64,000 nucleotides of DNA. Source: Acidimicrobiia bacterium. Lineage in GTDB: Bacteria > Actinomycetota > Acidimicrobiia > Acidimicrobiales > Bin134. The position numbers and the translations under genes were made by a program. Below the pieces are notes generated by a model that did no database searches, was not told the origin of the DNA, and saw nothing but the letters and a program-made list of their open reading frames with translations. This document shows, piece after piece, positions 9,281 through 19,914 of the stretch; positions within the stretch are counted from its first letter, which is position 1; every line of letters begins with the position of its first letter. The stretch is from positions 1 through 64,000 of the forward strand of contig JAJDUJ010000019.1 of NCBI GenBank assembly GCA_022826705.1. Direction: 5' to 3'.

Positions 9281-10660
9281 TCAGCCGAAGCGGGTGGCGT
9301 CGGCCTTTAGGCGGGCGCGGAGTTGTTCGAGCTGCGCGGCTACTGGCTCGGGGCCAGCGCCGCCGGGGGTGGTGCGGCGGGTGACGGGGACGCCGGGGGC
9401 GAGCAGCTCGGCGGCCGCGTCGCCTAGGCGGGGGTCGGCTCGTACCAGGTCGGCCAGGGATGCCTCGCCGTCCAGGCTTCGGCGTACCAAGTCGCCCACC
9501 ACCGCGTGGGCGTCTCGGAACGGCATGCCTTGGGCTACCAGGTGCTCGGCGAGATCGGTGGCCGCTGATGCGGGGGCGTCGGCGGCTGCGGCCATGGCCT
9601 CGGTATTGAAGGCGATGGAGGATAGAAGCCCGTTCATGGCCCGCACGCCGAGGCGCACCTGGTCGAACGTGTCGAACAGAGGCTCTTTGTCTTCTTGGAG
9701 GTCGCGGTTGTAGGCCAGCGGCAGGCCCTTGAGGGTGGCCAGCAAGCCAGTGAGGTTGCCGATGAGCCGGCCGGCTTTGGCCCGGGCCAACTCGGCGATG
9801 TCGGGGTTCTTCTTCTGGGGCAGCATGGAGCTGCCGGTGGAGTAGGCGTCGTCGAGGGTGGCGAAGTTGGCCTCTTCGGAGGTCCAGAACACAATCTCTT
9901 CTCCGAGCCGGGACAAGTGGATGGCCACCATTGTCAGCGCGAACAGGCTCTCGGCCACGAAGTCCCGGTCGGATACTGCGTCCATGGAGTTGTCGAACCG
10001 GGCGGCAAAGCCCAACTCGGCCGCGGTCACATCGGGGTCCAGGGGAAGCGAAGAACCCGCCAACGCGCCCGCGCCCAGGGGGCTGACGTCCAGTCGGTTG
10101 TGGGCGTCGGCCAATCGGTCCACGTCCCGGGCCAGCGCCCAGCCGTGGGCCAGCAGATGGTGGGCCAGCAGCACCGGCTGGGCCCGCTGAAGATGGGTGT
10201 AGCCCGGCAGGTAGGTGTCGCCTGCGTCGACGGCCCGCTCGACCAGCACCTGCTGGAGGGCAATCACGTCGACAGCGATGGCGGCCAGCTCCCGCTTGGC
10301 GAACAGGCGCAGGTCGGTGGCCACCTGATCGTTGCGGCTGCGACCGGTGTGGAGCTTGGCCCCGGCGGGTCCGGCCAGCTCGGTGACCCGGCGCTCGATG
10401 GCGGTGTGGATGTCCTCGTCGCCGGGCGCGAAATCGAACTCACCGGCGGCCAGTTCCTGCTCGGTCTGGTCGAGCGCGGCCAGCACCTCGTCAACCTCGG
10501 CATCGGTGAGCAGGCCGACGCCGCCCAGCATCCGGACGTGGGCCCGCGACCCGGCAATGTCGTCGGGTGCCAGCCTCACGTCGAAGCCGATGCTGGCGGT
10601 GTAGGCCATCAGCTCGTCGGCGGGGTCACCGTCGAATCTGCCGTGCCAAAGCGTGCTCAT
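9281..10660 (-). CDS. argH: Argininosuccinate lyase
   Basis: Last step of arginine synthesis: argininosuccinate to arginine and fumarate. The 459-residue length is typical of the family. It shows GRSRNDQ (106-112), the conserved TH (155-156) and the superfamily signature [12 protein letters not shown] (276-287), where the Ser loop supplies the catalytic residue. The ATG at 10660 overlaps the argG stop by ATGA; the reading frame stays open upstream, but that part has no ArgH character. It is the terminal gene of argCJBDFRGH. Confidence 0.97.
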
Positions 10661-11874
10661 GACGGGCCTGCTCGCTGGGCCAGAGTGCGCAGCCGCAGGG
10701 CGTGGAGCTTGATGAACCCCTCGGCGTCGGCCTGCTGATAGGCGCCTTGGTCTTCCTCGAAGGTGACCACCGCCTCGTCGAACAGGCTGTCGTCGGAGCG
10801 CCTGCCGGTGACGGTCACGTTGCCCCGGTACAGCTTGAGCCGCACGGTGCCGTTCACCCGCTGCTGAGAGTGGTCGATGGCGGTCTGGAGCATGAGACGC
10901 TCGGGGCTCCACCAATAGCCGTTGTAGATGAGCTGGGCGTAGCGGGGCATGAGCTCGTCTTTGAGGTGGGCCACCTCCCGGTCGAGGGTGAGGCTCTCCA
11001 TGGCCCGGTGGGCCTTGAGCATGATGGTGCCCCCGGGGGTCTCATAGCAGCCCCGCGACTTCATGCCCACGTAGCGGTTCTCCACCAAGTCGAGTCGGCC
11101 GATGCCATTGGCCCCGCCGATGCGGTTCAGCTCGGCCAGCACTGCGGCCGGACTGAGGGGCTGGCCGTTTATGGCGGTGATGTCTCCGCCTTCGAAGGTG
11201 AGCTCGATCTCGGTCGGGGTGTCGGGGGCGCTCTCCGGCGACACCGACCAGCGCCACATCTCCTCGGGAGGCTCGAACCACGGATCCTCCAACGGCCCGC
11301 CCTCGTAGGAGATGTGGAGCAGGTTGGCGTCCATGGAGAACGGCGAGCCGCCCTCCCGCTCGGCCTCGATGGGAATGCCGTGCTCCCCGGCGTAGGCCAC
11401 CAGCTTCTCCCGGGAGCCCAGGTCCCAGATGCGCCAGGGGGCCACCACCGAAATGTCGGGATTCAGGGCGTAAGCGCCCAGCTCGAAACGCACTTGGTCG
11501 TTGCCCTTGCCGGTGGCGCCATGGGACACGGCGTCGGCGCCGACCTCGGCCGCGATCTCCACGAGCCTTTTGGCGATGAGCGGGCGGGCGATGGAGGTAC
11601 CCAGTAGGTATTCCCCCTCGTAGATGGCATTGGCCCGGAACATGGGGAACACGAAGTCGGCGGTGAACTCCTCCCGCAGATCCTCAATGTAGATCTCGTC
11701 CACGCCCATGGCCTCGGCCTTGGCCCGGGCCGGTTCCAACTCCTCGCCTTGGCCCAGGTCGGCGGTGAAGGTGACCACCTCGCAGCCGTAGGTGTCCTGC
11801 AACCAGCGCAGAATCACCGAGGTGTCCAAACCGCCGGAGTAGGCCAGCACGATCTTGTTCAGTTCCTGGTTCAC
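10657..11874 (-). CDS. argG: Argininosuccinate synthase
   Basis: ATP-dependent condensation of citrulline and aspartate, 405 residues, typical of the type I enzyme. The P-loop-like ATP-binding motif AYSGGLDTS is at residues 11-19. [15 protein letters not shown] is the citrulline/aspartate-binding region, and [15 protein letters not shown] lies in the C-terminal half. The start codon is GTG, overlapping the argR stop by GTGA; the stop overlaps argH by ATGA. Confidence 0.97.
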
Positions 11875-12374
11875 GAGCTCTCCTCTAAGGGGGCGGATTC
11901 CGCCGGATCGGTGAGTCCGGCCAGCGAGCGGAAGAAGTCGGCCACCGCACCGCCGCCGGCTTGCTCGGTGGCCACCACCAGCACGGTGTCGTCACCGGCC
12001 ACGGTGCCCAGTACGCCGCTTACTGGGGAGCGGTCGATGGCCGAGCCGACCACATGGGCCGACCCCGGCGGGGTGTTCAGCACCACCAGGTTCCCGGAGC
12101 TGCCCACGGCAACTACCCACTCCCCCAGCACCCGCCGGAGGTGGTCGTCGGGGGCGATCTGCTCAGAGGGCAGCTCGGGGATGGCGTACACCGACCCGCC
12201 GCCGGTGGGGACTTTGACCGCGCCGAGGTCGTCGAGGTCGCGCGACACGGTGGCCTGAGTGACCGCCACTCCCTGAGCAGTCAAGAGTTCCACCAGGTGA
12301 TCCTGGCTGGACACCGACTCCTGCCGAAGGATCTGGGCGATCCGGTGCTGGCGCTGGTTCTTCCCCAATCTCAT
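11871..12374 (-). CDS. argR: Arginine repressor ArgR
   Basis: A 167-residue arginine-sensing regulator embedded in the operon it should control. The N-terminal winged helix (1-70) has recognition helix [13 protein letters not shown] (39-51). The C-terminal oligomerisation and arginine-binding domain has [12 protein letters not shown] (123-134), where the Asp pair binds the arginine guanidinium. The ATG at 12374 gives a normal ArgR N-terminus and an ATGA overlap with argF. The probable operator is the ARG box at 17522-17539 in front of argC, which would make the operon autoregulated. Confidence 0.95.
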
Positions 12375-13270
12375 GACGCCTCCAACAAGAACGCGAGCAG
12401 GCCGCGGGCGGCGTGCATCCGGTTCTCGGCCTGTTGCCATATCCGGCTCTGCGGACCGTAGAGGACCTGTTCGGTTACCTCCAGGCCGGGGCGGGCGGGC
12501 AGGCAGTGCAAGAAGATGGCGTCGGGGGCGGCCTGACCCATTAGCGCCTCGTCGACGGTGTAGCTGGCGAAGGCGTCCATCTTCTCTGAGGACTGCTTCT
12601 CTTCGCCCATCGAGACCCACACGTCGGTGTACACCACATGGGCATCGGCCACTGCCTCAGCCGGGTCGTCGATGATCTCCGCGGCGCCGCCGGTAGCGGA
12701 GATGCGATCCAGATCAGCGCTGCTGAGCCGGTAGCCGGGCGGGCCGGAAATGACGAACTCCGCACCGGCCATGCCGGCTGCGATGGCCAGCGACCGGGAC
12801 ACGTTGTTGGCATCGCCCACGAAGGTGATGCGGCGCCCGCTGACCTCCCCGAACGCCTGCTTGACGGTCAGCAGATCGCCCAGCGCCTGCAAGGGGTGGG
12901 CCTGGTCGCTCAGCATGTTGACCACCGGCACCGGACTGACTGCGACCATGCGCGTCAGCAGGTTGTGATCGAACACCCGGGCGCCGATGGCCGCGTGGTA
13001 GCAGGCCAGGGTGCGGACAACGTCTTCGGCCGACTCCCGGTTGTCGATATCAACCTCGCCCTTGGCCACCGACACTGGGTGGCCGCCCAGCTGCACCACG
13101 GCCATCTCCATGGAGTGGCGGGTCCGGGCTGAGGGCTTCTCAAACAGCAGGGCCATGCCCTTGCCGTCCAGGGCTTGGGGTGGAGACGGATCGTCAGCCA
13201 GGTCCAGAACTTCAACTAGCTCTGCTGGGCTGAGGTCATCGACCTCGAGGAGGTGGCGGGGGGGCTTCAT
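12371..13270 (-). CDS. argF: Ornithine carbamoyltransferase
   Basis: Transfers the carbamoyl group from carbamoyl phosphate to ornithine, giving citrulline. It has 299 residues. The carbamoyl-phosphate loop reads PSARTRHS (46-53) instead of the usual STRTR, an accepted variation. HPLQ is at 125-128, the ornithine loop DVWVSMG at 215-221 and the catalytic HCLP at 255-258. The ATG at 13270 forms an ATGA overlap with argD. The stop overlaps argR by ATGA. Confidence 0.96.
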   Translation of the reverse strand: MKPPRHLLEVDDLSPAELVEVLDLADDPSPPQALDGKGMALLFEKPSARTRHSMEMAVVQLGGHPVSVAKGEVDIDNRESAEDVVRTLACYHAAIGARVFDHNLLTRMVAVSPVPVVNMLSDQAHPLQALGDLLTVKQAFGEVSGRRITFVGDANNVSRSLAIAAGMAGAEFVISGPPGYRLSSADLDRISATGGAAEIIDDPAEAVADAHVVYTDVWVSMGEEKQSSEKMDAFASYTVDEALMGQAAPDAIFLHCLPARPGLEVTEQVLYGPQSRIWQQAENRMHAARGLLAFLLEAS

Positions 13271-14451
13271 GACTTCAGTACCTGGTCGAGCACGGCCACG
13301 CCGTGGGCTATCTCGTCTTCGCTGATGATGAGGGGCGGCGCGATCCGCAGTGATGTGGCCCCGGCGGTGCCTAACACCAGGCCGGCAGCCATTCCCGCGG
13401 TCACCACCTCGGCGGCAGGGCGTTCTCCCGCCAACTCCACGCCCAGCAACAGGCCCCGGCCCCTCACACTGTCCACTCCGTCGAGCGCCTCCACGGCGGA
13501 CCGCATGGTCTCGCCAGCGGCGGCGGCCCGAGCCGGCAGGTCCAGCTCCTCCATCACGGCCAGCGTCGCCTTGGCCGCCGACGCCGCCAATGGCTGGCCG
13601 CCGAAAGTGGTGGCGTGGTCGCCAGGTTTGAAGGCGGCGGCGACGTCTTCCCGGGCCCAGCAGGCCCCGATGGGCATGCCGTTGCCCAGCGCCTTGGCCA
13701 TGGTCACCACGTCGGGCTCGACCCCGTCGTGGTGGTGGGCGAACCAGCGCCCGGTGCGGGCCAGGCCGGTCTGCACCTCGTCGAACATGAACAGCAGGCT
13801 CCGGTCGTCGCACAGCTCGCGTACCGCTTGGAGGTAGCCATCAGTCGGGACGTTGATGCCCCCCTCGCCCTGGATGGGCTCCAGCAGCACCGCGGCGGTG
13901 GTGTCGTCGATGGCCTTCTCCAGCTCGGCAATGTCGTCCCAGGGCACATGGCGGAATCCCTCGGGCAGGGGCTGGAAGGCCTCATGCTTCTCGGCTTGGC
14001 CGGTGGCGTGCAGCGTGGCCAGCGTGCGGCCGTGGAATGAGCGGCCCGCGCTGATCACGGTGTAGCGGCCGGGTCCGCCCCATTTGCGGGCCAGTTTGAT
14101 GGCGCACTCGTTGGACTCGGCCCCGCTGTTGGCGAAGAACACCTGGCCAGGCGACCCGCCGACCAGACGGTCGATGGTGCGGGCCACGTGCATCTGGGGC
14201 TCGGTGGCGTACAGGTTGGACACGTGGCACAGGGTGCGGGCCTGCTCAGCCACTGCTTCGGCCACCCTGGGGTGGGCGTGGCCGAGGCTGCACACCGCGA
14301 TGCCGCTCAGGAAGTCCAGATAGCGGGTGTCGTCGCGATCCCACAGCCAGCATCCCTCCCCCCGGACGAACATGACCGAGGGCGGCCCGTAGGTGGGCAT
14401 AAGCGGGCAGGGTCCGGCGTCGACTCCTACCGCATCGGTGTGAGTGCTCAT
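13267..14451 (-). CDS. argD: Acetylornithine aminotransferase
   Basis: PLP-dependent class III aminotransferase converting N-acetylglutamate semialdehyde to N-acetylornithine; 394 residues. SGAES (109-113) binds the cofactor phosphate, FDEVQTGL (223-230) contains the PLP-pyridine Asp, and Lys253 in TMAKALGNG is the Schiff-base lysine. Context in the arg operon supports ArgD over the related GABA or succinylornithine transaminases. ATGA overlaps at both ends. Confidence 0.95.
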   Translation of the reverse strand: MSTHTDAVGVDAGPCPLMPTYGPPSVMFVRGEGCWLWDRDDTRYLDFLSGIAVCSLGHAHPRVAEAVAEQARTLCHVSNLYATEPQMHVARTIDRLVGGSPGQVFFANSGAESNECAIKLARKWGGPGRYTVISAGRSFHGRTLATLHATGQAEKHEAFQPLPEGFRHVPWDDIAELEKAIDDTTAAVLLEPIQGEGGINVPTDGYLQAVRELCDDRSLLFMFDEVQTGLARTGRWFAHHHDGVEPDVVTMAKALGNGMPIGACWAREDVAAAFKPGDHATTFGGQPLAASAAKATLAVMEELDLPARAAAAGETMRSAVEALDGVDSVRGRGLLLGVELAGERPAAEVVTAGMAAGLVLGTAGATSLRIAPPLIISEDEIAHGVAVLDQVLKS

Positions 14452-15326
14452 GGGGTGGCCTCCTGATCGGCGGAGTCGGGGTAGACCATGGTGCCCACGC
14501 CGGAATCGGTGAACAGCTCCAGCAGCAACACGTGGGGGGTGGTGCCGTTCACTATGTGGGCCGAGGCCACGCCGTGGCGAACGGCGTGAATGGCCGCGGT
14601 GGCCTTGGGGATCATGCCCCCGGCCAAATCCCCGGCGGCGATCATGGCATCTAGATCAGAGGCGGTGGTCACGCTGATGAGGGTGGATGGATCGCCGGGA
14701 TCGGCGTAAAGGCCCTCGACATCGGTGAGGAACACGGCTTTGGCCGCCCCCAGGGCGCCGGCCAGGATCCCGGCCACAGTGTCAGCGTTGATGTTGAGTG
14801 CTTGGCCGGTGGCGTCGGCACCGATGGTGGACACCACCGGAATCAGGCTCTCGTCCAGCAGACGGTCGATGATGGCGGTGTTGACGGTGTCCACCGTGCC
14901 GACATAGCCCAACTCGGGGTTCTCGGCCCGGGCCTGGATCAGTCCAGCGTCCTCTCCCGACACGCCCACGGCGAGAGGACCGTGGACGTTGATGGCCGAG
15001 ACGATGTCGCGGTTGACCCGGCCCACCAACACCATGCGGGCGATGTCCAGCGTCTCGGCGTCGGTCACCCGCAACCCGTCGACAAACCTAGGTTCCAAGC
15101 CGAGCCGCTCCATCATCTCGCCGATCTGAGGGCCGCCGCCGTGGACCACCACGGGGCGGATGCCCACCGATTGCATGAGCACAATGTCGGCGGCGAACCC
15201 GGCCAGGTGATCGCTGTCCATGGCGCTGCCGCCGTATTTCACCACCACGGTCGAGCCGGAGAACCGCTGAATGTAAGGCAGGGCTTGGGTGAGGACCGCT
15301 GCGGTGTCTTCAGCTTTGAAGCTCAT
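14448..15326 (-). CDS. argB: Acetylglutamate kinase
   Basis: Phosphorylates N-acetylglutamate; amino-acid kinase fold, 292 residues. Lys30 with YGGS (31-34) forms the phosphate-binding start, and VHGGGPQI (61-68) is the nucleotide-loop signature. Near the C-terminus GGMIPK supplies the conserved Lys. In many bacteria with a long arg operon this enzyme is the arginine-feedback-inhibited step; the N-terminal helix here (about residues 6-22) could carry that function, but this is inference. The start at 15326 gives ATGA overlap with argJ. Confidence 0.96.
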   Translation of the reverse strand: MSFKAEDTAAVLTQALPYIQRFSGSTVVVKYGGSAMDSDHLAGFAADIVLMQSVGIRPVVVHGGGPQIGEMMERLGLEPRFVDGLRVTDAETLDIARMVLVGRVNRDIVSAINVHGPLAVGVSGEDAGLIQARAENPELGYVGTVDTVNTAIIDRLLDESLIPVVSTIGADATGQALNINADTVAGILAGALGAAKAVFLTDVEGLYADPGDPSTLISVTTASDLDAMIAAGDLAGGMIPKATAAIHAVRHGVASAHIVNGTTPHVLLLELFTDSGVGTMVYPDSADQEATP

Positions 15327-16480
15327 GACGTCCCCATGTTCTCGTCGATGTAGGCGTGGGTGAGGTCGGTGGTGATGATCCGGGCCGAGCCGTCGCCCAT
15401 GCCGAGGTCCACATGCAGGTCGAGCCGCCGGCCGGTCATGTACTCGGCCAGCTCGGGGGGATGGGCCGGCTCGCCGTACTGATACACCACATGGGGGCCG
15501 TAGGCGATTGTCAGCTTGGTGTGGTCGAAGGCCACCCCGGCCGCGCCCATCTCCGAGGCAATGCGTCCCCAGTAGGGGTCTTGGCCGTACCAGGAGCATT
15601 TCACCAACTGGCAATTTGCGGTGTCCCGAGCCGCTTTGGCCGCCTCGGCATCGGTGGCCGCCCCGGTGACCCGGAGGAACACCGTCTTTGTGGAGCCCTC
15701 AGCGTCGTCGGCCATTTGGAGGGCCAAGCTCTCGCAGGCGTCGGCGATGGCCTGGGTGAGGACGGCGGGATCGACCGGGCCGGCCTGTCCGTTGGCCAAA
15801 ATCAGCACGGTGTCGTTGGTGGACTCGGCGCCGTCCACCGTCAAGGTGTTGAACGTGCCCGCCACTCCGACTCTGAGGGCGTGTTGAAGGGTGTCGGGGT
15901 CGGCAGCCGCATCAGTCACCAACACGGCCAGCATGGTGGCCATGTTGGGCTCCAGCATGGCCGCGCCCTTGGCAATGCCTCCCACGGTGAAGCCGTCGCC
16001 GGCGACAACCACCTGCTTGGGGACGGTATCGGTGGTCATGATGGCCTCGGCTGCTTGGGGGCCGCCCTCGGCGGTTTGGGCGGCGGCCGCGGCGGCGATG
16101 CCAGCCGACACCGCATCCATGGGCAGGACGTAGCCGATGAGCCCGGTAGAGCACACCAGCACTTCTTCAGGGGCCACTCCCAAGGCAGCGGCGGTCTCCT
16201 TGCACATCTGGTGGGCGTCGGCCATGCCCTGCGCCCCGGTGGCCGCATTGGCATTGCCGCTGTTGAGGACCACCGCGGCGGCCTTTCCTCCCGTGGTGGT
16301 CAGATGCTCCCGGCACACCAGCACCGGAGCGGCAGTCATCTTGTTGGAGGTGAACACCCCGGCCGCGCTCACGGCAGCGCCGTCGGCGGTGGCCACGATG
16401 GCGAGGTCGGGCTTGCCGCTGGGCTTGATGCCGCACGTCACCCCTGCGGCAGTGAACCCGGGGACTTCGGTCACGCTCAT
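15323..16480 (-). CDS. argJ: Glutamate N-acetyltransferase / amino-acid acetyltransferase ArgJ
   Basis: Moves the acetyl group from N-acetylornithine to glutamate, closing the acetyl cycle. It is an Ntn-type hydrolase-fold enzyme made as one 385-residue chain that self-cleaves. The cleavage site is seen in LEPNMATMLA, before Thr182, which becomes the N-terminal nucleophile of the beta chain. NSGNANA (73-79) and STGLIGY (111-117) are family signatures. No separate argE or argA is in the operon, consistent with the cyclic pathway. Whether it also accepts acetyl-CoA (bifunctional type) cannot be read from sequence. ATGA overlaps on both sides. Confidence 0.95.
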   Translation of the reverse strand: MSVTEVPGFTAAGVTCGIKPSGKPDLAIVATADGAAVSAAGVFTSNKMTAAPVLVCREHLTTTGGKAAAVVLNSGNANAATGAQGMADAHQMCKETAAALGVAPEEVLVCSTGLIGYVLPMDAVSAGIAAAAAAQTAEGGPQAAEAIMTTDTVPKQVVVAGDGFTVGGIAKGAAMLEPNMATMLAVLVTDAAADPDTLQHALRVGVAGTFNTLTVDGAESTNDTVLILANGQAGPVDPAVLTQAIADACESLALQMADDAEGSTKTVFLRVTGAATDAEAAKAARDTANCQLVKCSWYGQDPYWGRIASEMGAAGVAFDHTKLTIAYGPHVVYQYGEPAHPPELAEYMTGRRLDLHVDLGMGDGSARIITTDLTHAYIDENMGTS

Positions 16481-17502
16481 GGGTACACCCCCACCGCGGT
16501 CAGTCCGGAGGCTTCGTCCAGTCCGCTGATGATGTTGGCGCACTGCACAGCCTGTCCGGCCGCCCCCTTCACCAGATTGTCTATGGCGCACAGCGCCACC
16601 ACGGTTTGCGTGCGGGCGTCGTAGCGGACGGTGAGGTGGGCGGCGTTGGAGCCCAGCGTGGCCTTGGTAGACGGCGGACGCTCAGACACGACGATGAACG
16701 GCTCGTCGGCATAGAACTCGGCCAGCCCCGCGAGCACTGCTTCGCTGGAGGTCTCCCCCGTCGGCTTGGCGTAGCAGGTGGCCAAGATGCCCCGATTCAT
16801 CGGCGCCAGATGGGGGGTGAACAGCACCGATGCGCCCGAGGCTTGCTCGATCTCCGGGGTGTGGCGGTGGTCGAGCAGCCCATAGGCAGTGAAGTCCTCA
16901 TCGACCGCGCAGAACGTGGTGTGGGCTTTGGGGGGCCGACCCGCGCCGGAAACCCCGCTGGCCGCGTCCACGATGACCCCATCGGTCTGGATGAGGCCCA
17001 AGCGGACCAAAGGAGCCACCGCAAGCGCCGCAGCAGTGGGATAGCAGCCCGGTACAGCCACCGCGGCAGCACCCGCCAACTCATCTCTGAACAGCTCTGG
17101 CAGGCCGTAGGCGAACTGGCCGAGAAGCTCGGGAGCAAGATGAGACTCCCCATACCACTGCTCGTATTCTTCGGCGTCGTTCAGCCGGAAGTCGGCAGCC
17201 AGATCGATGGCGACCTTGCCCCGATCCAGAATGTCGGCAGCCATAGCCATGGACTGGCCATGGGGCAGCGCTAAAAATGCCAACGACACGTCATCCAGCA
17301 AGGCGGGGTCGTATTTCACAAACTCCTGGTCGGCACCAATGGCGGCCAGGTGAGGATAGAGGTCAGCGACTGGCTGCCCCGCCTGGGTGTCGCCGGTCAC
17401 AAAGCGCACGTCGAAGCCAGGATGCTGAGCCAGCAGCCGCATCAACTCCGCGCCCACATATCCCGAAGCCCCAATGATCCCAATGGGGACTCTTTCTGCC
17501 AT
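16477..17502 (-). CDS. argC: N-acetyl-gamma-glutamyl-phosphate reductase
   Basis: NADPH-dependent reduction of acetylglutamyl phosphate; 341 residues. GASGYVG (11-17) is the dinucleotide-binding loop and PGCYPTA carries the catalytic Cys153. It is the first gene of the eight-gene arginine operon, and the ATG at 17502 fits the family N-terminus. There is no Shine-Dalgarno sequence ahead of it, and the best promoter would start transcription only about 5 nt upstream, so it may be translated from a nearly leaderless mRNA. Regulation by ArgR is suggested by the palindrome at 17522-17539. Confidence 0.96.
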   Translation of the reverse strand: MAERVPIGIIGASGYVGAELMRLLAQHPGFDVRFVTGDTQAGQPVADLYPHLAAIGADQEFVKYDPALLDDVSLAFLALPHGQSMAMAADILDRGKVAIDLAADFRLNDAEEYEQWYGESHLAPELLGQFAYGLPELFRDELAGAAAVAVPGCYPTAAALAVAPLVRLGLIQTDGVIVDAASGVSGAGRPPKAHTTFCAVDEDFTAYGLLDHRHTPEIEQASGASVLFTPHLAPMNRGILATCYAKPTGETSSEAVLAGLAEFYADEPFIVVSERPPSTKATLGSNAAHLTVRYDARTQTVVALCAIDNLVKGAAGQAVQCANIISGLDEASGLTAVGVYP

Positions 17503-17513
17503 AGGTGCAATTA

Positions 17514-17543
17514 TGCATAACTATGAATAAGTATTCAAGTCAA
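17514..17543 (-). promoter_or_regulatory. argC operon promoter
   Basis: On the minus strand TTGACT (17538-17543) is followed after 17-18 bp by TTATGC/TATGCA (17514-17520). This is the only clear promoter-like pair in the 54-bp gap between pheT and argC. It predicts transcription starting around 17507-17508, only a few nucleotides before the ATG. The spacer is occupied by the ARG-box palindrome, so bound ArgR would block RNA polymerase. Confidence 0.6.
17522..17539. promoter_or_regulatory. ARG box (ArgR operator)
   Basis: The core TGAAT-AAGT-ATTCA (17524-17537) has perfect inverted arms and matches the 18-bp ARG-box consensus known from E. coli and Bacillus ArgR. It lies inside the promoter spacer of argC. 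A second, imperfect element TGCAATTATGCA (17506-17517), nested with the palindrome TTATGCATAA (17511-17520), lies next to it and may form a weaker tandem box, as ArgR hexamers usually bind two sites. Confidence 0.75.
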
Positions 17544-17556
17544 TTGCAGTGGAAGT

Positions 17557-19914
17557 TCAGCCGCGGAGGGAGGCGTTGTGGGTGTTGGAGACGGCGTCGA
17601 TGCAGGATTGGCGGGCTTGGGCTACCTCGGCGTCGTTGAGGGTGCGGTCGGGGGCTTCGAAGCGGAGGGTGAAGGCCAGACTGCGTTGGCCTTCTCCGAG
17701 TTGGTCAGAGCGGAACACGTCGAACAGGGCGACAGAGGCCAGCAACTCGCCTCCGGCCTCGGCGATGGTGGCGTATACCTCGTCGGCCGACACCTCATCG
17801 GAAACGGTGAAGGCCAGGTCCACGTCGCTGGACGGGTAGCGGCTGGGGGCCCGATACGGGGCTAACCCTCGATCGGCTTCTAGTAGAGCGCCGAGGTCGA
17901 CTTCCAGCCAGGCCACCCGCTCGTCGATCTCATAGGCATCCAGCACTTGGGGGTCGATCTCGCCCAGCGCGCCGACCGGTTGGCCGTCGGCCAGCACTTG
18001 GCCCGACCGTCCGGGATGAAGGCCGTCTACCGGACCGTTGACCACGCCGGGGCGGGCCACGGTCAGGTGGCGGGCCAGGCGGCGCCACAGCGTGGTGGCA
18101 GCGGTGGCCTCTTGGCCGGCCAGAATCACTGCCAGGTGCTCTCCCTCATCGGGGAGATCCCCTCCCCCGCCGGGGTTCACCCGGCCGATCTCGAACAGCG
18201 ACACCCCGGTGGTGCGCCGAGCCGCGTTGTAGGCCACCGCCTTGAGCAGGCCGGGGCGCAGCGAGGTCCGCATGATCGATTCTTCGGCCACCAGCGGGTT
18301 GGTCACAGTGATGCCGTCGTCGCCGAGGCCGGCTCGGGCCAGATCACCTGGGGCCAAGAAGGGCAAGGGCATGGCTTCGCTGATCCCCATACCAGTGAGC
18401 AGTTCCCGGACCCGGCGGCGGTCTTGTTGCTGGGGGGTGAGCGCGCCAGCCTGCTCGGTCACCGGGACAGTGCGGGCGATCTTGGAGAAGCCGTGGAGCC
18501 GACCCACTTCCTCGATCACATCGATCTCGGTGGCCGAATCCAGCCGCCAGGACGGGATGTTGACGTTGAAGTCCTGGCCGTCTTCTCCCGAATCGCAGGC
18601 AAAGCCGATGGGCTCGAGCAGGGCGATCATCTGGTCAGTGCTTAGATCGGTTCCCAAGATGGAATTAACCCGCGGCGATCGGACTCGAACGGGGATGGGC
18701 TCCGGGCGATTGCCGGTGGCGTCGATCATGCCGGGTGCAGTGGTAGACCCGAGGGCGGCGGCCAGCTCGGCGAAGCGGTCCAGCGCTATGGGGATGATGT
18801 CGGGGTCGGCCCCCCGCTCGAATCGGGCTGAAGCCTCGCTGCGCAGGCCCAGTCGGCGGGCAGTGCGGGCGATGGTCATGGGATCCCACCACGCGGCTTC
18901 CAGCAGCACCGAGCGGGTGTCGGCTGAGATCTCGGTGGAGGCCCCGCCCATTACCCCGGCCAGGCCGATGGCCTGGTCATCGCGGTTGACGATCACCCCG
19001 TCGTAGGTAGTGAGAGCTCGCGCTGTGCCGTCCAAAGTGATCAACTCTTCGCCCCGATGGGCCATGCGCACCCCCAGCTCCCCGCCGGGTACGAGGTCGA
19101 GATCGTAGGTGTGGTTGGGCTGGCCCAGCTCGAACATCACGTAGTTGGACAGGTCCACCACCGCGTTGATGGGCCGCTGCCCCACGGCCAACAGGCGGTT
19201 GGCCATCCATCGGGGCGACGCTCCCGAGGGCACATTGTCGAGCACTCGCACCCCAAAGCGTTGGCAGAAGTCGGGGGAGGCGATGCTCACCGACGCCCGC
19301 TCGGCCGCAGGCGTTCCAGTCTCATCGACAGCAGGGACAGCGACCGAGAAGGGCACTCCTAGGCGGGCGGCCAGGTCGCGGGCTACGCCCATCACCGACA
19401 TGGCGTCGGGGCGATTGGGGTTCACCTCCAGGTCGAACAGCACATCGGGCTGGATACCCAGCGCCTCGGCCAAGGGGACTCCCAGCGACAGGCCCTGTTC
19501 CAAGATCAAGATGCCCTCGTGGTCGTCGCCCATGCCGATCTCGGCCCCTGAGCACAGCATTCCGTTGCTCCACTCGCCCCGCATCTTTCGGCGTGCGATC
19601 TCAATGCCGTTGGGCATGGTGGTGCCCACGGTGGCCAGCGGCACCAAATCGCCCACTGCCATGTTGAATGCCCCGCAGCAGACTTGGAGGGCCTCGCCGT
19701 CGCCGGCGTCCACGTCCACCAGATGAATGCGGTCGGCATCGGGGTGGGGCCGGGTGGCCAGCACTTCGGCGATCACGATGCCGTCCAGCCCCCGCCCCAC
19801 GTGGGACAGCTCCTCCACCGCGAGGCCCAAGTCGGCTAGGACTTCAGCCAACTGCTCGGAGTCGCCGTCGATGTCGGGGGCGAAGTCCCGCAGCCAGCTC
19901 AACAGCACCTTCAT
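17557..19914 (-). CDS. pheT: Phenylalanyl-tRNA synthetase beta subunit
   Basis: Large subunit of the alpha2-beta2 enzyme charging tRNA-Phe. The 785 residues cover the usual layout: N-terminal tRNA-binding EMAP-like domain (about 40-150; HPDADRIHLVDVDAGDG), B3/B4 editing domain (about 210-390), B5 domain (about 400-475), catalytic-like core, and C-terminal ferredoxin-fold anticodon-binding domain (about 690-785; YPSSDVDLAFTVSDEVSADE). It lies 34 bp downstream of pheS and is probably cotranscribed. The short gap to argC carries the arg promoter. Confidence 0.97.
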   Translation of the reverse strand: MKVLLSWLRDFAPDIDGDSEQLAEVLADLGLAVEELSHVGRGLDGIVIAEVLATRPHPDADRIHLVDVDAGDGEALQVCCGAFNMAVGDLVPLATVGTTMPNGIEIARRKMRGEWSNGMLCSGAEIGMGDDHEGILILEQGLSLGVPLAEALGIQPDVLFDLEVNPNRPDAMSVMGVARDLAARLGVPFSVAVPAVDETGTPAAERASVSIASPDFCQRFGVRVLDNVPSGASPRWMANRLLAVGQRPINAVVDLSNYVMFELGQPNHTYDLDLVPGGELGVRMAHRGEELITLDGTARALTTYDGVIVNRDDQAIGLAGVMGGASTEISADTRSVLLEAAWWDPMTIARTARRLGLRSEASARFERGADPDIIPIALDRFAELAAALGSTTAPGMIDATGNRPEPIPVRVRSPRVNSILGTDLSTDQMIALLEPIGFACDSGEDGQDFNVNIPSWRLDSATEIDVIEEVGRLHGFSKIARTVPVTEQAGALTPQQQDRRRVRELLTGMGISEAMPLPFLAPGDLARAGLGDDGITVTNPLVAEESIMRTSLRPGLLKAVAYNAARRTTGVSLFEIGRVNPGGGGDLPDEGEHLAVILAGQEATAATTLWRRLARHLTVARPGVVNGPVDGLHPGRSGQVLADGQPVGALGEIDPQVLDAYEIDERVAWLEVDLGALLEADRGLAPYRAPSRYPSSDVDLAFTVSDEVSADEVYATIAEAGGELLASVALFDVFRSDQLGEGQRSLAFTLRFEAPDRTLNDAEVAQARQSCIDAVSNTHNASLRG

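Follow-up and report, generated by a model that had tools for sequence, protein, structure and literature searches.

A candidate ArgR operator overlapping the predicted promoter and leaderless start of argC in an Acidimicrobiia arginine gene cluster

Described arginine operators and leaderless genes

The ARG boxes of E. coli are 18-bp palindromic sequences that overlap the promoter with one known exception and occur in clear pairs 3 bp apart, whereas the possible second box at the locus described here is weak (PMC3293853 for E. coli). Operators in Streptomyces consist of two adjacent boxes (PMC3293853, PMC5839063), and those bound by ArgR in S. coelicolor are contiguous boxes of 20 bp (PMC5839063). 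A layout in which such boxes are fused with a gene start is already in print as sequence: the two joined boxes of S. coelicolor argG (SCO7036) read TTGCAT-N17-CATACT-N6-ATG (letters from PMC5839063, Table 1), and the operator fragment is shifted by ArgR in gel shift assays (PMC5839063). The spacing suggests that this argG may be leaderless; no statement to that effect was found in PMC5839063.

The locus considered here lies upstream of argC in a 64,000-nucleotide stretch of Acidimicrobiia DNA, the whole of which is termed the window. As in S. coelicolor argG, the box overlaps with the predicted -35 and -10 and with the start codon (N17, N7). The S. coelicolor gene differs in being argG and in having a second box that is scored as full (PMC5839063), whereas only the left half of a second box matches in the window. 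For the same gene, argC, the operators of S. clavuligerus and S. coelicolor have two boxes 20 bp apart from centre to centre that overlap the promoter region, and they have been footprinted or gel-shifted (PMC3293853, PMC5839063). Unlike those in the window, the S. coelicolor argC boxes are placed 18 and 38 nt ahead of the start (PMC5839063, Table 1), which leaves room for a leader. The argC of another genome from the same phylum (G101, 9.2 Mb) has the same box and -10 as the window, but a leader with AGGAGG.

Leaderless genes are predicted to make up more than 20% of actinobacterial genes, the TA-led ones being marked by a -10-like hexamer some 12 bp ahead of the start codon and by the lack of a Shine-Dalgarno sequence (PMC3160421). 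In M. tuberculosis they were measured at 26% of the genes that have a primary start (PMC3898074). The argC of the window differs from TA-led genes in that its predicted -10 adjoins, and partly sits inside, the repressor site, and in that its hexamer reads CATAAT, not TANNNT. Among openly licensed papers, searched by titles and the beginnings of abstracts (PMC6009599 included), none on leaderless argC was found.

The argC locus and its candidate operator

The genome from which the window comes has 31 contigs, 3,452,426 bases (3.45 Mb) and 66% GC. On the minus strand, pheT ends at 17557, leaving a gap of 54 bp before the argC ATG (17502), and eight arginine genes, argCJBDFRGH, follow end to end and tightly packed. 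All eight exceed the cut-offs of their family models, which bears out the cluster, argR included, that the earlier note had proposed.

17557 to 19914, minus strand: pheT, the gene upstream of argC (TIGR00472, 645.5 bits, cut-off 402.65)
16477 to 17502, minus strand: argC (TIGR01850, 394.4 bits, cut-off 233.6)
15323 to 16480, minus strand: argJ (NF003802, 410.9 bits, cut-off 351; frame as scanned, start approximate)
14448 to 15332, minus strand: argB (TIGR00761, 258.1 bits, cut-off 151.3; frame as scanned)
13267 to 14451, minus strand: argD (NF002874, 472.9 bits, cut-off 457)
12371 to 13270, minus strand: argF (TIGR00658, 307.6 bits, cut-off 280.85; frame as scanned)
11871 to 12380, minus strand: argR (TIGR01529, 140.4 bits, cut-off 130.45; frame as scanned, likely ATG at 12374)
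10657 to 11874, minus strand: argG (NF001770, 628.5 bits, cut-off 334)
9281 to 10660, minus strand: argH (TIGR00838, 553.8 bits, cut-off 279.5; frame as scanned)

The closest named record for ArgC, among the matches listed, is 100% identical and belongs to an Acidimicrobiia metagenome-assembled genome. The ArgR of the cluster has PDB 3ere, 'Arginine repressor', as its best match of solved structure (E 6.4e-36), and matches a further family model, NF002880, below its cut-off (164.1 vs 200). Across the order, argR is found in 76 of 79 genomes, in 74 of them over the cut-off.

Ahead of argC the minus strand reads ...TGCAATTGACTTGAATACTTATTCATAGTTATGCATAATTGCACCTATG..., with the ATG at 17502-17500. 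The following elements are assigned to it:

17533 to 17538, minus strand: predicted -35, TTGAAT, which shares bases with the left arm of ARG box 1 (from the scan, the spacing of 17 and the conserved columns)
17524 to 17537, minus strand: ARG box 1 core, TGAATACTTATTCA, with perfect palindromic arms (from the letters; conserved in the order)
17513 to 17517, minus strand: TGCAT, which may be one half of a second ARG box; it lies 20 bp from box 1 and overlaps the -10 (from relatives)
17510 to 17515, minus strand: predicted -10, CATAAT (from the scan and the comparison)
17500 to 17502, minus strand: argC ATG, 7 nt past the -10; RNA is predicted to start at its A or beside it

The palindrome with perfect arms TGAAT/ATTCA that the earlier note had pointed out is present at 17537-17524; we take these arms to match the E. 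coli-type consensus. A genome-wide pattern search finds two perfect copies of TGAATNNNNATTCA in the 3,452,426 bases. The other perfect TGAAT-N4-ATTCA, at G000:C15:88608-88621 (L002 1501-1514), lies within a 553-aa frame in which a GPPGTGKG motif can be seen by eye. With one mismatch there are 22 sites genome-wide (22 per strand, the pattern being palindromic) vs 5 for the reversed pattern. A reading of this excess as an ArgR regulon was rejected, because the reversed control contains TTA/TAA, which is expected to be rare at 66% GC. One mismatch in TTGMATNNNNATKCA gives 39 rows, from which 20 loci, argC among them, were examined further. At 17 of the 19 non-argC loci (the exceptions are L269 and L274) the site falls in a frame that stays open for 250 codons or more on one strand or the other, a weak count since GC-rich DNA commonly has open frames on either strand.

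Conservation among relatives

The comparison with argC upstream regions of related genomes that the earlier note had recommended was run at the level of the order. An argC match was present in 76 of 79 genomes; G011, G014, G025 and G042 were dropped as partial or truncated, leaving 72 regions, 19 from the genus of the window and 53 from other families. Metagenome assemblies account for many of these genomes; the gene starts are crude, and the promoter is predicted. A TTG(A/C)AT-N4-AT(G/T)CA box matching at least 9 of 11 positions occurs in 68/72, against a mean of 4.4 and a maximum of 10 in 200 shuffles; G002, with only 29 nt upstream of argC, is scored as a miss. A strict composite of box and -10 matches perfectly 29 times in the 79 genomes, and all 29 matches are just upstream of argC. 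Arms of both the TGAAT and the TGCAT type occur within the genus (L016-L035): of its 19 sequences, 10 have A and 9 have C at position three of the left half-site.

The geometry downstream of the box is also conserved. When spacings of 16-18 are allowed between -35 and -10, the best is 17 in 67 of the 72 regions, and the first in-frame start codon lies 6-7 nt past the -10 in 47. A box of at least 8/11 with an in-frame ATG or GTG 5-9 nt past the -10 is found in 60/72 (40 shuffles: mean 1.9, maximum 5); the full pattern of box, -10 and start spacing is absent in 12. Slightly different scoring, with TTG starts allowed, gives 59/72 of leaderless type. A further set was made from named loci, the best 80 being taken and 11 exact duplicates of the 72 removed; the same full pattern is present in 57 of these 69 and not in 12 (among the matches listed, kinship ignored). 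Upstream of argC in the window there is no match of at least 4 nt to the anti-Shine-Dalgarno complement used. Partial matches of 4-5 nt appear in 18 of the 59 leaderless-type relatives, none of which has GGAG or GAGG. The comparison thus favours three proposals of the earlier note: that the ARG box overlaps the (predicted) argC promoter, that the argC start is of leaderless type, and, as far as the sequences suggest, that the cluster with argR may be under arg-box control.

Columns were compared in the 65 of the 72 regions that have at least 8 box matches and at least 3 matches to the -10 (19 from the genus, 46 from other families). In the 46 sequences from other families, the TTG(C/A)AT and CATAAT/TATNNT columns carry about 0.8-2 bits, values that are partly built in since the same columns picked the alignment. 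Offsets -4 to -1, which lie inside the TTGACT just upstream, carry 0.00-0.17 bits in these 46, and the opening TTA of TTATGC 0.04-0.07 bits; this lack of conservation is not an artefact of the choice of alignment.

A second box is suggested by the sequence, and would be weak in the window. The half-site TGNAT 20 bp from the first box averages 3.95/4 in the genus (n=19) and 3.41/4 in other families (n=46), and its partner half in the window (17508-17504) matches at 1/4 bases by eye. Left and right halves together reach 6/8 at offset 20 in 10/19 regions of the genus and 20/46 of other families, where any other offset from 15 to 29 gives at most 1/46. The right half alone is near background in other families, with a mean of 1.61/4 at offset 20 vs up to 1.48 elsewhere; in the genus its mean of 1.26 is below that at several other offsets (up to 2.16). 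The second box is put forward as a suggestion because its left half overlaps the -10 and its right half is near background.

At the level of the phylum, argC was found in 89 of 100 genomes, and 82 regions were kept after G000, G027 and G053 (already counted) and G099, G119, G141 and G171 (partial) were dropped. A box of at least 9 occurs in 51/82 and a leaderless-type start, TTG allowed, in 21/82; these are raw counts that serve as context only, and several matches are loose. In one family of the phylum (f72), six of eight genomes (G089, G104, G118, G130, G142 and G163; loci L163, L149, L158, L170, L174 and L165) have a TTGAAT box, then N17 and a -10-like hexamer, and 7 nt past that an ATG in frame. 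This is the geometry of the argC of the window, though the family is far from its order.

Predicted control of the cluster and alternative readings

The site is very probably the operator-promoter of an autoregulated argCJBDFRGH operon, with a sigma promoter, a leaderless argC, exclusion of polymerase by ArgR-arginine and self-repression of argR. ArgR is inferred to bind here, and to do so in dependence on arginine. The main sigma factor would recognise TTGAAT-N17-CATAAT, and RNA would begin at the A of the argC ATG, or 1-2 nt before it, on a message that presumably carries all eight genes and from which argC would be translated without a leader or a Shine-Dalgarno sequence. With ample arginine, ArgR-arginine would occupy ARG box 1, over the -35 and spacer, possibly helped by a weaker site that lies on the -10, 20 bp further downstream. 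It probably represses by excluding RNA polymerase, which the bound protein would keep off. As argR is the sixth gene, ArgR would repress its own synthesis and, by analogy with E. coli and Streptomyces, close a negative loop.

The position of the promoter is where this reading departs from the earlier note, which had placed the palindrome in the spacer of TTGACT-N17-TTATGC and the RNA start about 5 nt before the ATG. Both hexamers are there (TTGACT at 17543-17538, TTATGC at 17520-17515), 17 bp apart as described, and TTGACT is by eye closer than TTGAAT to TTGACA. As a promoter, however, the pair goes unsupported: outside the genus neither TTGACT nor the first half of TTATGC is conserved, and inside it relatives carry TGGTT instead. 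A simple sigma-70 scan of 13 kb returns TTGAAT-N17-CATAAT as its sole site, although the consensus alone is at chance level there (1 found vs 1.0 expected). That pair, 5 bp downstream of TTGACT/TTATGC, is thus probably the better supported promoter, and a promoter at TTGACT/TTATGC with a leader of about 5 nt is very improbable. With TTGAAT as the -35, the palindrome would contribute its left arm to that hexamer and have its right arm in the spacer. Because the promoter is 5 bp further downstream, the expected leader shrinks from 5 nt to about 0-2 nt; the argC RNA should start at the ATG or within about 2 nt of it, and would thus be leaderless.

It may instead be that argC is mainly read from pheST, the box being a roadblock or a minor internal promoter and the argC message having a long upstream part. 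The two genes are on the same strand, and pheT ends no more than 150 nt from argC in 24 of the 71 regions with enough sequence. Since no terminator-like site is listed in the 54-bp gap, read-through keeps some standing. However, regions that lack pheT within 150 nt have the box in 46 of 47 cases, and those in which pheT is that close have it in 21 of 24; the promoter goes with argC, not with pheT. Read-through also leaves the 6-7 nt between -10 and start unexplained, and is quite improbable as the main source of argC message. A chance palindrome at an argC outside ArgR control would be in keeping with the loose palindromes of the window, which, with two mismatches allowed, are no commoner than in shuffles (4 found vs 7.58 expected). 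It is hard to reconcile with a box conserved across the order at one fixed position, beyond shuffles, and can be given almost no weight. A more ambitious version of the operator-promoter reading, which is unlikely, holds that the order-wide fusion of operator, -35, -10, RNA start and start codon in about 40 bp is kept because leaderlessness is itself under selection. A shortage of arginine would in that case work in two ways, through release of ArgR and through leaderless translation favoured under starvation, with the argR in the message as off-switch.

About 40 bases thus hold an overlapping repressor site, promoter and gene start, likely a switch for arginine production, in a layout common to the relatives. 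This is a tidy illustration of biology already described, not a new kind of control, and the picture of arginine control is unchanged. With it, the range of the Streptomyces-type ArgR operator grows to include an order known, in the named matches listed, almost wholly from metagenome-assembled genomes, and leaderless argC is suggested as the common state of that order. Together with G101, which has a leader and Shine-Dalgarno sequence under the same box and -10, these loci form a natural series for a change of initiation mode under a fixed operator.

Across the window as a whole (64 crude gene calls, 548 candidate starts), a -10-like hexamer lies exactly 7 nt upstream of five starts, argC included; other offsets give 0-6 (6 at 31, 5 at 36, 4 at 27), and there is no clear signal. 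The other four starts, from the crude gene calls, are at 2654 (-), 28425 (+), 41964 (-) and 60270 (-).

At two of the compared loci, the ATG 7 nt past the -10 opens a short frame other than argC, possibly through assembly error. In L034 (G004:C45) this frame has 5 codons (MGVPH); in L037 (G026:C47) it has 6 (MATGAP), and its stop overlaps the argC start (ATGA). Further short out-of-frame ORFs occur in a similar place upstream of argC in L213, L250 and L253, where boxes or -10s are weaker.
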